In this document: positions 27,181-36,547 of the stretch, one piece after another
How positions within the stretch are numbered: position 1 is the stretch's first letter
Layout: the number at the start of each line of letters is the position of its first letter
NCBI GenBank assembly: GCA_009646425.1
Contig: WJBW01000004.1
Span: 1 to 64,000, forward strand
Reading direction: 5' to 3'
From: Burkholderiales bacterium LSUCC0115
GTDB lineage: Bacteria; Pseudomonadota; Gammaproteobacteria; Burkholderiales; Burkholderiaceae_A
DNA: 64,000 nt
Notes under the pieces: model-generated
What the model saw: the letters and a program-made list of their open reading frames with translations, nothing else
What the model was told of the DNA's origin: nothing
The model's database searches: none
Made by a program: the position numbers and the translations under genes

Positions 27181-28290
27181 ATGCACGCTACGGTTCAGGT
27201 GGGCCTGGCAGATCGCAGCTACCCCATTTGGATCGGCGAGGGCCTGCTCGGTCAGCCCGATATCTGGCGCGATGCACTCAGGCCCGGCCGGCCCGGCCGG
27301 GTGGTCGTGGTGTCCAATGAGGTGGTCATGCCCCTCTATGGCCAGCGGGTGCTCGATGCCCTCGGGTCATTGGGTTGTCAGACCTCGCAGGTGGTCTTGC
27401 CTGATGGCGAGTCTCACAAGGACATGGCGAGCCTGATGAAGATTTTTGATCATCTGATGTCAGAGCATGTAGACCGCTCTGCCACGGTAGTCGCCCTTGG
27501 AGGCGGGGTCATTGGGGATATGGCAGGCTTTGCCGCGGCCTGTTATCAGAGAGGCATTGATTTTGTCCAGGTGCCCACCACCTTGCTGTCTCAGGTCGAC
27601 TCCTCGGTTGGGGGCAAGACGGCGATCAATCACCCGCTGGGCAAGAACATGATTGGGGCGTTCTACCAACCCAGGGCTGTGATCATTGATATGACGGTTC
27701 TCAAGACCCTGCCCCCGAGAGAGGTGTCAGCAGGACTTGCGGAAATCATCAAGTACGGTTGCATCCTAGACGCCGACTTTTTCAATTGGCTTGAGGCCAA
27801 TATGCAGGCCTTGATGGCTGGCGATGCCGACGCGCTGGCCTATGCGATCCAAAAGTCTTGCCAGATCAAAGCCCAGGTGGTGGCCGCTGACGAACGGGAG
27901 TCCTCGGGTCAGAGGGCCCTTTTGAACTTTGGGCACACGTTTGGTCATGCCATCGAGGCTGGCATGGGCTACGGTGCTTGGCTTCATGGTGAGGCAGTCG
28001 GCTGCGGCATGGCTATGGCAGCGCTTTTGTCTTGTCAGTTGGGCCAACTCGATGTGCCGTCGTTCAAACGGGTGGTGGCACTCATCGATCGAGCCGGTTT
28101 GCCTCTTCAGCCCCCCGCTTGGCCAGCCCAGGCGTATCTAGACTGGATGGCCCACGATAAAAAATCTGCCGCCGGCGCCATTCGTTACATCCTGCTCAAA
28201 GGGCTCGGCCAGTCCGAGCTCAGACCGGTTGAGGATGCACTCGTGCGGCTGGCCATCGAGGCCTCCCAAAAAGGACTGGCTTCGGCGTGA
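27181..28290 (+). CDS. aroB: 3-dehydroquinate synthase
   Basis: AroB is an NAD- and metal-dependent enzyme that converts DAHP to 3-dehydroquinate. From ATG 27181 the product has 369 residues, the usual size, and starts MHATVQVGLADRSYPIWIG. In-frame ATGs at 27100 and 27121 would add 27 or 20 residues and overlap aroK; they do not match the family N-terminus. Visible motifs are PDGESHKDM, LGGGVIGDMAGFAAACYQRGI, PTTLLSQVDSSVGGKTAINHP and the metal-ligand histidines in NFGHTFGHAIE and LHGEAV. Confidence 0.94.
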   Translation: MHATVQVGLADRSYPIWIGEGLLGQPDIWRDALRPGRPGRVVVVSNEVVMPLYGQRVLDALGSLGCQTSQVVLPDGESHKDMASLMKIFDHLMSEHVDRSATVVALGGGVIGDMAGFAAACYQRGIDFVQVPTTLLSQVDSSVGGKTAINHPLGKNMIGAFYQPRAVIIDMTVLKTLPPREVSAGLAEIIKYGCILDADFFNWLEANMQALMAGDADALAYAIQKSCQIKAQVVAADERESSGQRALLNFGHTFGHAIEAGMGYGAWLHGEAVGCGMAMAALLSCQLGQLDVPSFKRVVALIDRAGLPLQPPAWPAQAYLDWMAHDKKSAAGAIRYILLKGLGQSELRPVEDALVRLAIEASQKGLASA

Positions 28291-29447
28291 GCGGTTCTGA
28301 GCGAAGTGGTCCTGTGGTGGCTCGGTTTGCGGCCCAGGCCCATCGCAGCAGAGGTCGTCTGCACTCGGAGCCAGAGCCCATTGGTCGATCGGCCTTTCAA
28401 CGGGACCGAGACCGAATCGTTCATTCAACGGCGTTTCGAAAGCTACTCTACAAGACCCAGGTCTTCGTCAACCACGAGGGGGATCTCTTCCGGACGCGTC
28501 TTACGCACAGCCTGGAGGTGGCCCAGATTGCCCGATCGGTGGCTCGTCGCCTTCGTCTGGACGAGGAGCTCACCGAGGCCATCTGCCTGGCGCATGATCT
28601 CGGGCACACACCGTTCGGGCATGCGGGACAGCACGCCCTGAATCAAGCGCTCAGAGAGACGACGGCCGGCCAAAGCGGTTTTGAGCACAACCTGCAGAGC
28701 TTGCGGGTGGTGGATCGATTGGAGCAACGCTACGCCAACTTTGATGGCCTTAACCTGACATTCGAGACCCGGGAGGGCATCTTGAAACACTGCTCAGCCT
28801 CTCTGGCCTGCGAGTTGGGGGAGGTGGCCCAACGGTTCATCAAAGGGGAGTCTCCCAGTCTGGAGGCGCAGCTGGCCAATGTGGCCGATGAGGTGGCCTA
28901 CAACCATCATGACCTCGACGATGGCCTTCGCTCTGGGCTCTTGGTGTTTGAGGAGGTCATCGAGCAGCCGCTGGTGGCGCCCCATGTCCGGCGTCTGCAG
29001 CAGACCCATCCCCAACTGTCCCGCCACCGTCTGATGGCCGAGGTGATTCGCGGCATGATCAATGAGCAGGTTGATGACCTGACCCTGACCACCGAGCAGC
29101 GACTGACCAGTCGAGGCATTGAGGACGATCGAGATGTCCGCCAGCAGGCGGAGGCATTGGTGGCTTTTTCGTCCGAGATGGGCCAGCAGGTGCTCGACCT
29201 CAAACGGTTTTTGCGCCAGCGGCTGTATCGCCACCCGCGCGTGTTGGACATGACCGACGTGGCGGAGAGGGTCATTCAGGATTTGTTTGGTTGGCTGATG
29301 AGCGAACCGATGGACGCCGATGACCAGCGCTCCCCCCATCGTCGTGCGGCTGATGAGATTGCCGGCATGACCGATCGGTATGCGGCGCTCACCCACGCCA
29401 CAGTCTTTCCTGGCCGGGCGTGCTGGCCCTCTCCGATCGGGCAGTGA
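28287..29447 (+). CDS. dgt: Deoxyguanosinetriphosphate triphosphohydrolase-like protein
   Basis: This HD-domain protein is expected to hydrolyse dGTP to deoxyguanosine and tripolyphosphate. The 386-residue product shows the HD-family metal residues as His74 (RLTHSLEVAQ) and His103-Asp104 (AHDLGHTPFGHAG), and DEVAYNHHDLDDGLR near residue 200. It starts with GTG overlapping the aroB stop (GTGA), so it belongs to the aroK-aroB transcript. Confidence 0.93.
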   Translation: MSGSERSGPVVARFAAQAHRSRGRLHSEPEPIGRSAFQRDRDRIVHSTAFRKLLYKTQVFVNHEGDLFRTRLTHSLEVAQIARSVARRLRLDEELTEAICLAHDLGHTPFGHAGQHALNQALRETTAGQSGFEHNLQSLRVVDRLEQRYANFDGLNLTFETREGILKHCSASLACELGEVAQRFIKGESPSLEAQLANVADEVAYNHHDLDDGLRSGLLVFEEVIEQPLVAPHVRRLQQTHPQLSRHRLMAEVIRGMINEQVDDLTLTTEQRLTSRGIEDDRDVRQQAEALVAFSSEMGQQVLDLKRFLRQRLYRHPRVLDMTDVAERVIQDLFGWLMSEPMDADDQRSPHRRAADEIAGMTDRYAALTHATVFPGRACWPSPIGQ

Positions 29448-29471: not shown

Positions 29472-30170
29472 ATGCGAAGAGCCAGGGCCATTTCAACCGG
29501 CCGAAGCTATCACCTGATGCAAAAGGGTCATGGTGGGCATGCCTTCTGCCTCGATGCACAAGACCGGCAGACCTATCTGGACCTTTTTCTGGAGGCGGCG
29601 CAGGGCTATGGACTGCTGGTCCATGCCTGGTCCTGTACAGACCGAGAGGCCCATTGGCTGGTGACGCCCCAACGGGTCTCCGCGGTCGCAGAGGTGATGC
29701 AGCAACTGGGGCGGCGGTATGTCCCTCTTTTCAACCGTCGGTGGTCCCGTAAGGGAACGCCATTTGATGGCCGCTATCGGAGCTATTGGGTTGAGGTCGA
29801 TGCCTTTGGCCTGTGTGTAGCCCGCTACATCGACGGGCAGGCTCAGCGCATGGGTCTGGTTGGTTTGGCAGTGGATTGGCCTTGGTCGAGTGCTGGCATT
29901 TGGGCAGGGCAACAGCCACCCATTGGGGGGCCGGTTCGGGAGCTGGCCAGCTACTGGCGGCTTGGAAACACCCCTTTTGAGCGGGAGCAGGCCTACCAGC
30001 GGTTGCTACAGGAGCCTCTGGAGGAGCCAGTATTGGCCGAGATTCAGCGCGGTCTGGCCCAAGGCCGGCCCATGCTGTCTGCTCAGTGCTGGGCCAGCTG
30101 CCCGTCTGGGTTTGTTCAGCAGTGGATGCTTCGCCCAAGGGGGCGTCCCCGAAGACAGCCGACCCCCTAA
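29472..30170 (+). CDS. RAYT/IS200-like transposase-related protein with degenerate HUH motif
   Basis: The N-terminal 140 residues match the Y1 transposase pattern of REP-associated tyrosine transposases: YHLMQKGHGGHAFC, DRQTYLDLFLEAA, LLVHAW, FDGRYRSYWVEVD and RYIDGQAQRMGLV...WPWSS. The metal-binding motif normally reading NHVH appears as R-E-A-H (58-61), so the first HUH histidine is Glu59; the nucleophile candidate Tyr119 remains. The usual NPVRAGLV segment is altered to GQAQRMGLV. No terminal repeats or target duplications were seen. It lies 24 bp after dgt and upstream of gltB. A domesticated DNA-binding protein is more likely than an active transposase. Confidence 0.7.
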   Translation: MRRARAISTGRSYHLMQKGHGGHAFCLDAQDRQTYLDLFLEAAQGYGLLVHAWSCTDREAHWLVTPQRVSAVAEVMQQLGRRYVPLFNRRWSRKGTPFDGRYRSYWVEVDAFGLCVARYIDGQAQRMGLVGLAVDWPWSSAGIWAGQQPPIGGPVRELASYWRLGNTPFEREQAYQRLLQEPLEEPVLAEIQRGLAQGRPMLSAQCWASCPSGFVQQWMLRPRGRPRRQPTP

Positions 30171-30207
30171 TGAGGTGTCCCTAATAAAATCACTGTTCTC
30201 TCTTGTC

Positions 30208-30236
30208 TTGTATAAAAATTGTTCTGACCCTATTAA
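30208..30236 (+). promoter_or_regulatory. Weak candidate promoter upstream of gltB
   Basis: TTGTAT (30208-30213) and TATTAA (30231-30236) are spaced by 17 bp in an AT-rich stretch that stands out from the surrounding GC-rich sequence. An alternative -10, TATAAA, lies at 30211-30216 without a good -35. The transcript would carry a leader of about 60 nt before gltB. Confidence 0.4.
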
Positions 30237-30285
30237 AAAACCTGTTTTGAAGGGGTTTTAGAGGCGTTTTGGCGTACCAAAACCC
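30237..30285 (+). promoter_or_regulatory. Leader of gltB with alternative pairings
   Basis: The segment GTTTTGG (30266-30272) pairs perfectly with CCAAAAC (30277-30283) around CGTA. The upstream block GGGTTTT (30253-30259) can instead pair with AAAACCC (30279-30285), or its GGTTTT with AAAACC (30237-30242). These pairings cannot all form together, which resembles an attenuator or a protein-binding leader. Alternatively GTTTTGGCGTACCAAAAC may be a DNA operator. The function is unknown. Confidence 0.4.
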
Positions 30286-30301
30286 AATGGCTTGAGGGAC
30301 A

Positions 30302-35038
<4,737 letters not shown>

Positions 35039-35080: not shown

Positions 35081-36547
35081 ATGGGAAAAATCACTGGATT
35101 TATGGAACTCGAGAGGCTGGAAGAGGGCTATGAGGATCCCAGCCAGCGGCTCAAGCACTACAAAGAGTTTGTCATTGGACTCAGCCCGGAGCAGGCCCAT
35201 CAGCAGGCGGCTCGATGCATGGACTGTGGCATTCCTTTTTGTAACAACGGCTGCCCAGTCAACAACATCATTCCGGACTTCAACGACCTGGTCTACAGAG
35301 ACCAGTGGCGAGAGGCCTTGGACACGCTGCATTCGACCAACAATTTTCCAGAGTTCACCGGGCGCATATGCCCAGCCCCCTGTGAGGCTGCTTGTACGCT
35401 GAACTTCAACAGCGAAGCCGTTGGCATCAAATCGATTGAGCACGCCATCATCGACCGAGGCTGGGCCGAGGGCTGGGTTCAACCCCAGCCGCCCCATCAC
35501 AAGACAGGCAAGCGGGTTGCCGTGATTGGATCTGGCCCCGCAGGCCTGGCCGCTGCGCAGCAACTGGCCCGTGCTGGCCATGAAGTCACGGTCTTCGAGA
35601 AAAACGATCGCATTGGTGGACTTCTGCGTTACGGCATTCCCGACTTCAAGATGGAGAAGCATCACATTGACCGTCGTGTTGACCAGATGAAGGTTGAGGG
35701 CGTTTTGTTCAAGACCAGCACCCTGGTGGCCGATCTACCGGCCGACACCAAGGTCACCAACTGGGCCAGTCAGACCGTGAGCCCAGAGGCCCTCATGGCC
35801 GAGTTCGATGCTGTGTTGCTGACGGGGGGGGCCGAGCAGCCTCGTGATCTCCCGGTGCCAGGCCGAGAGCTGGCCGGCGTTCATTTTGCGATGGAATTTC
35901 TGCCCATGCAGAACAAGGTCAATGCCGGTGACAGCTTTCCTGGGCAGATTCGTGCGGACGGCAAGCACGTGGTGGTCATTGGCGGTGGTGACACCGGTTC
36001 CGACTGCGTGGGAACCAGCAACCGGCATGGCGCCAAGAGCGTGACACAGTTTGAGCTCATGCCCATGCCCCCAGAGCATGAGAACAAGGCCATGACGTGG
36101 CCGTACTGGCCAACCAAGCTGAGGACATCGAGCAGTCACGAGGAGGGTTGTGAGCGTGAGTTCGCCATTGCCACCAAGGAATTCGTCGGTGAAAACGGTC
36201 GGGTGACAGGTCTCAAGGCCGTTCAGATTGAGATGAAGGATGGCAAGCTCCAAGAGGTGCCTGGCACGGAACGGGTCTTCCAGGCCGACCTGGTGTTGCT
36301 GGCCATGGGCTTTGTATCCCCGATTGGCTCCGTGCTGGAGGCCTTTGGGGTGGACCGTGATCAGCGGGGGAACGCCAAGTCTCCGACTGAGGGCAGCAAG
36401 GCCTACGGGACCAACGTGGCCAAAGTCTTCTCAGCCGGTGACATGCGTCGCGGACAGTCCCTGGTGGTGTGGGCCATTCGCGAGGGCCGTCAGGCTGCGC
36501 ACGCGATCGATCAGTTCCTCATGGGATCGTCCAGTCTGCCTCGATAG
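35081..36547 (+). CDS. gltD: Glutamate synthase (NADPH) small subunit
   Basis: GltD takes electrons from NADPH through FAD and Fe-S centres to GltB. The 488-residue product has the N-terminal cysteine cluster [15 protein letters not shown] (46-60) and CPAPCEAAC near residue 101, the FAD site [11 protein letters not shown] near 150 and the NADPH site GGGDTGSDC near 305. The glycine-aspartate motif [22 protein letters not shown] closes the FAD domain. It lies 42 bp after gltB in one operon. Confidence 0.97.

Follow-up and report, generated by a model that had tools for sequence, protein, structure and literature searches.

Loss of catalysis and a candidate operator in a gltB-linked RAYT family of Burkholderiales

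RAYTs are called domesticated transposases, but we know of no host function that has been demonstrated for any of them. In the E. coli RAYT, residues around beta-1, around beta-4 and at the C-terminal end make contact with the GTAG motif of the hairpin (PMC8266576). Loss of cleavage therefore need not abolish binding. RAYTs flanked by TIRs (TIRYTs) have ends that share the motif GGGGWSAS (PMC3733652). Our search of the open-access literature returned neither a gltB-linked RAYT nor a RAYT acting at a single host promoter.

Here we analyze a RAYT-like gene of Burkholderiales bacterium LSUCC0115 that lies upstream of gltB in a stretch of 64,000 nucleotides (the window). From sequence comparison, we consider it likely, at a rough probability of 0.7, that a domesticated and often catalytically dead RAYT binds an old transposon end as its operator and controls gltB.

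A RAYT family linked to gltB

The gene order at the locus is aroK-aroB-dgt-RAYT-gltB-gltD (Table 1), with names taken from translations and tblastn conservation. The RAYT ORF starts with ATG, ends 131 bp ahead of gltB and is probably co-transcribed with aroK-aroB-dgt. A second in-frame ATG of gltB, at 30338, may be its true start. At L003-L005 and L007-L016, which represent one genus and part of another within the window's family, there is no dgt between aroB and RAYT, so RAYT directly follows aroB.

Table 1. Coordinates of features at the RAYT-gltB locus in the window
Feature	Position	Strand	Basis
dgt-like dGTPase gene, 25 bp upstream of RAYT	28287..29447	+	ORF, synteny
gltB-linked RAYT-like protein, 232 aa, HUH broken	29472..30170	+	ORF, motifs, profile match, conservation, fold
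E59-A60-H61 codons, altered HUH motif	29646..29654	+	motif reading, family alignment
Y119-Q123 codons, former catalytic Tyr and metal-ligand Asn of Y---NP	29826..29840	+	alignment
LGNTPFER codons (164-171), signature of the gltB-linked family	29961..29984	+	profile, scan; missing in 19 non-gltB RAYTs
RGRP codons, conserved basic tail, putatively AT-hook-like	30138..30149	+	alignment
Site motif 1, GTGTCCC (CTGWCCC type)	30175..30181	+	intergenic alignment, motif counts
Site motif 2, CTGACCC	30224..30230	+	exact core in 21/21 of the window's family
gltB, glutamate synthase large subunit, presumed target gene	30302..35038	+	ORF, conservation
gltD, glutamate synthase small subunit	35081..36547	+	named from translation

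This is more than a chance ORF, since it is intact beside gltB in 20 of 25 other genomes of the window's family, always upstream and in the same orientation, its dN/dS is low, and its CAI (0.64) is like that of its neighbours (0.64-0.72). The full length noted in a preliminary description of the locus is shared by all 20 family members that carry the gene. In the other five genomes, gltB is at a contig edge (two), is not found (one) or follows dgt without RAYT (G024 and G025).

An AlphaFold model of the protein, computed from a 42-row alignment of the window and locus proteins, is confident (pLDDT 94, pTM 0.89) and agrees with the Y1/RAYT fold that had been read from the sequence. Its best structural match is 4ER8, the E. 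coli RAYT-REP complex (Foldseek E 1.6e-7; VIA Z 15.8, rmsd 2.5 over 158 residues), and the next entry has Z 9.6. Profile scores are lower than curated cut-offs: 13.4 of 23 bits for Pfam Y1_Tnp (E 0.088) and 22.5 of 80 bits for NCBIfam REP_Tyr_transpos (E 8.2e-5), which matches all 42 alignment rows at E <= 0.01. A Pfam search of the window's own genome did not report the RAYT, and a PDB sequence search with the protein returned no relative, whereas the fold search did find one.

The window protein is a RAYT by descent and fold, as seen from the match to 4ER8 and from intact orthologues at the same locus, and is nearest to the TIRYT type. As an enzyme of the RAYT / class 2 TnpA-Y1 group it falls short, with E59-A60-H61 in place of the HuH metal-binding motif and a disrupted Y---NP motif (Q123-A124 here, and F, W or A for the catalytic Tyr in relatives).

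A scan of GTDB genomes with GNTPF[ED]R, the most conserved peptide of the profile, found at least 583 relatives. The best 80 of these were nearly all from Burkholderiales, including Sphaerotilus, Roseateles, Ideonella, Duganella, Herbaspirillum, Polynucleobacter, Leptothrix, Janthinobacterium, Pararobbsia and other genera. In 79 of these 80, gltB was directly downstream; the exception, L094, had no gltB hit within its piece. Across an order-wide sample of 300 Burkholderiales genomes, the linkage held for most genomes with a gltB of at least 76% identity to the window's. It was absent from remoter families, some of which have aroB-dgt-gltB or aroK-aroB-gltB with no RAYT.

RAYT distances track gltB distances, with a Spearman coefficient of 0.60 over 85 loci and 0.84 within the window's family (permuted maximum 0.17), which argues for largely vertical inheritance. 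RAYT evolves faster than gltB, by about 3-4 fold in protein distance. These data indicate that the gltB-linked RAYTs are an ancient, orthologous, single-copy family of largely vertical descent. The gene is absent from some lineages that carry gltB (f10 genera, G024 and G025) and is therefore not essential there. Seven genomes without detectable gltB also lack a gltB-type RAYT: G294, G317, G402, G342, G406, G357 and G378 (three of f10 g12, two of f19 g146 and two of f4 g147); all seven belong to the held-out set described below. This joint loss could reflect single deletions of the linked pair.

Catalytic residues are lost repeatedly while the gene is retained

The HH/Y/N residues are intact in 75 of 144 aligned gltB-linked proteins, and the remainder carry many different replacements. 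On a tree built without the motif columns, a quick tree with many weak forks, a minimum of 15 changes between intact and broken states is required. The window's family groups as a single clade of 21 rows (SH-aLRT 99), every one of them broken. RAYTs of the same order that are unlinked to gltB are catalytically intact in 19 of 19 cases and lack the GNTPFER signature. Catalytic loss is therefore a feature of the gltB-linked family.

The preliminary description had reported a broken HUH motif in the window protein and proposed comparing homologues beside gltB. The broken motif is confirmed. E59-A60-H61 stands where RAYTs usually have NHxH, and Q123-A124 replaces the N-P of NPVR (Y---NP). Across the window's family, the first HUH His is E in 20/21 and the second His is kept in 20/21. 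The description had also pointed to the survival of Tyr119. Y119 is indeed present in the window, but it carries no functional weight, as this position is Y, F, W or A within the family. A surviving Y---Q active site (Y119/Q123) was ruled out by the closest sister, L002, in which residue 119 is F.

We calculated pairwise dN/dS by the Nei-Gojobori method, as had been proposed. Broken pairs gave 0.03-0.25 overall, and intact pairs fell in the same range. Among broken groups, values were 0.034-0.047 for L010/L011/L013, 0.08-0.14 for L018/L020/L021, 0.10-0.14 for the RL/W/Y group and 0.17-0.24 for the QQ/H/G group. The window and L002 gave 0.15, a rough value given a dS of 1.7. These ratios indicate that the RAYT gene is under purifying selection without its cleavage chemistry.

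A decaying pseudogene would also lose its catalytic motifs, would evolve faster than gltB and could go missing altogether, as seen here in G024 and G025. However, that explanation is contradicted by dN/dS well below 1, and the full-length ORFs and confident fold make it scarcely credible. The preliminary description had held that intact HUH homologues at this locus, together with signs of recent decay, would speak against domestication. Intact homologues are common at the locus in other families, but there are no signs of decay, and every member sampled from the window's family is broken.

It is also very unlikely that the gene belongs to a still mobile or REPtron-like element, kept by transposition, whose broken copies are passing casualties. 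HUH, Tyr and NP do survive in many gltB-linked relatives, and both element ends do so in some. Set against this are largely vertical descent, a single copy in a fixed position and one site per genome. For the broken clades, which are old and under purifying selection, mobility is largely contradicted.

A two-part site between RAYT and gltB

The DNA between RAYT and gltB has largely diverged within the window's family, but its alignment revealed two conserved blocks, motifs 1 and 2 (Table 1). Under a rule allowing at most one mismatch in total, a pair of CTGWCCC motifs 48-50 bp apart occurs at 62 of 139 loci, compared to 0.2 expected from dinucleotide shuffles. At least one exact core is found at 102 of 139 loci (4.5 in shuffles) and at 21/21 in the window's family; it is missing within 300 nt at 15/76 intact loci and 22/42 other broken loci.

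The motif points to a transposon end. Read on the opposite strand, CTGWCCCC becomes a form of GGGGWSAS, the motif that TIRYT ends share (PMC3733652). In several intact members the motif also recurs in inverted form, about 45 and 88 bp ahead of RAYT, and makes up a left end. The window's family has lost the left end and retained the right one, so the earlier statement that the gene has no flanking repeats was wrong: a relic of the right-end repeat lies 3' of it. One candidate left end in the window's family, GGGGTCAG in the aroB end of L010, L011 and L013, was not counted because it is absent from their relatives.

The window's genome has a single match to TGTCCC-N41-44-CTGACCC, at 30176-30230. 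Of the matches in the other genomes that were checked, the AT-rich ones lie at gltB; the rest are GC-rich and look like chance. No REP family was seen, in a genome-wide count that took in the CTGWCCC-type site only (one copy). Near RAYTs elsewhere in the order (L181-L198), CTGWCCC or GGGWCAG is often present, as expected of TIRYTs. Palindromic GGGGACAG/CTGWCCC units distant from gltB (G046:C1:3154314-3154390 and G403:C106:76502-76557) may be REP-like repeats that belong to other RAYTs.

A target in the gltB leader had been predicted, and the two-part CTGWCCC site found there supports this prediction. The particular hairpin that had been proposed (30237-30285) folds well in the window (z -2.7), yet it does not form in five related species, and we ruled it out as the target for this lack of conservation. 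What stands of the original idea of a domesticated protein that lost cleavage and kept hairpin binding is selection without catalysis, together with probable DNA binding.

At 86 loci outside the window's family, sequences anchored at motif 2 share TCCC.ATTAA...TTAA.T.GA.TCTGACCCCATTTATTT...TTG. The TTG is 12-13 nt past motif 2 in 73 of the 86, with a TA..CT block about 17 nt further. The presumed gltB promoter would adjoin the transposon end, with its -35 box next to the site in most families. In some members of the window's family, motif 2 itself appears to resemble a -35 box and the promoter is less clear. Scans of the window's gltB leader for sigma-70 promoters and terminators recognised nothing, and an Rfam search of the locus gave no match. 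An AT-rich stem between the motifs covaries outside the window's family (6.16 of 10 paired, null 5.47, 0/2000 permutations), a signal inflated by relatedness, which the test did not remove. Stem covariation was not detectable within the window's family, and no fold was supported for a hairpin in the window's own site. Directly ahead of the gltB ATG, AGGGACA (30295-30301) is the inverse of motif 1 (TGTCCCT); it may be chance, as L002 lacks it.

Genomes in which RAYT and gltB have parted show which of the two genes the site accompanies. In the f19 genomes G298, G274 and G221, gltB is now found after argJ, and RAYT has kept its position behind dgt; the exact pair precedes gltB, and there is none downstream of RAYT. 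In G080, G291, G077, G213 and G266, RAYT and gltB are about 1.5 to 45 kb apart and the site is just upstream of gltB. In dead lineages among the separated genomes, the site is a long inverted repeat, as in L158, where 25-nt arms (84% complementary) surround CTGTCCC/GGGACAG. L158 and L159 alone scored above every shuffle for generic inverted repeats, so the diverged f4 and f31 sites rest on alignment by eye.

The strict pair is absent from RAYT-less gltB genes of the clade (five f10 genomes, G024 and G025). At L176 and L177, the loci of G024 and G025, RAYT and motif 2 are gone and a conserved AT-rich block, CAAAAATAGTATATA, stays before gltB. A looser site rule counted 8/8 versus 1/13; we do not use its p-value because the rule was written after the cases had been seen.

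We held out 24 further genomes. The exact pattern occurred in four, each with RAYT beside it. Both held-out separated genomes, G337 (about 1.5 kb) and G335 (about 28 kb), have the site at gltB, and three RAYT-less gltB genes have no site. The linked f4 genome G399 matched neither rule. Overall, the site stays at gltB and not after RAYT in 10/10 separated genomes (two held-out), which perhaps represent four or more independent events in three families.

These data bear on two other explanations. The CTGWCCC site could be a promoter element or the site of an unrelated gltB regulator, with RAYT kept for another reason. NtrC and ArgR control gltBD in some Proteobacteria (PMC5343134), and the site hugs the promoter. 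We regard this as unlikely, because the motif equals the TIRYT end motif (PMC3733652), is present as an inverted left end at some intact RAYTs and is absent from the gltB genes of genomes without RAYT. Alternatively, RAYT could have another role on DNA or RNA, for instance in binding hairpins linked to replication or in controlling its own read-through transcript, and it would lie by gltB through old synteny only. The f19 RAYT remains with dgt rather than gltB, and in linked species the site falls in the 3' region of the RAYT transcript. However, every separated genome has the site at gltB rather than after RAYT, and genomes that lost gltB are also without RAYT, which makes this role quite unlikely.

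A putative regulator and its known relatives

Control of gltB by a domesticated RAYT would have arisen as follows. A TIR-type RAYT element may have inserted between dgt and gltB early in Burkholderiales and been domesticated in place, its right end being retained ahead of gltB. The protein would recognise the two-part site, either in double-stranded form or extruded as a hairpin, and would thereby tune gltBD transcription. The site is upstream of -35 in most lineages, so activation is favoured there. Binding would repress where motif 2 overlaps the -35 region, as it may in parts of the window's family.

Measured against what is expected of an exapted transposase regulator, the family shows loss of catalysis, purifying selection and a conserved candidate target at a host promoter. 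We also think it fairly probable that a Y1/HUH transposase became a dedicated, gene-specific transcription factor with its own transposon end as operator. It would act in trans where the genes have parted, would have lost catalysis repeatedly, and in some lineages its asymmetric end would have become a dyad-symmetric operator.

The window protein shares its fold with the E. coli RAYT / TnpA-REP (class 2 TnpA-Y1; PMC6006769, PMC8266576; 4ER8), and both are single-copy, chromosomal and presumed to bind hairpins. In contrast to that protein, it has lost HUH, Tyr (in relatives) and Asn, and has an extra C-terminal region with GNTPFER and RGRP. Its genome has one CTGWCCC-type site and no REP family was seen, with only that site counted. 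Like the TIRYT / TIRtron of Di Nocera and colleagues (2013, PMC3733652), the locus combines a RAYT with repeats sharing GGGGWSAS. In that paper, TIRYTs conserve HUH and Tyr, and the sections consulted make no gene-regulatory claim; the present locus has lost its left end and has its right end at a host promoter.

The family offers a defined candidate target, a natural series from intact to dead and a natural unlinking of site and protein, and these make a host role of domesticated RAYTs directly testable. If our reading is true, glutamate synthase, a hub of nitrogen assimilation, is controlled by an exapted transposase in a large bacterial order. These data suggest that many Burkholderiales have made a nitrogen-metabolism switch out of a transposon enzyme.

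TldRs derive from TnpB. They are catalytically inactive, RNA-guided regulators (PMC13418256) and are the nearest analogue in kind, as in both cases an IS200/IS605-type nuclease became a gene-specific regulator after catalysis was lost, a role that is putative here. The proteins are unrelated, and whereas TldR is guided by RNA, the gltB-linked RAYT would recognise its element's own DNA end. If true, the family would parallel the dead-TnpB regulators, which come from the partner gene in this transposon group.
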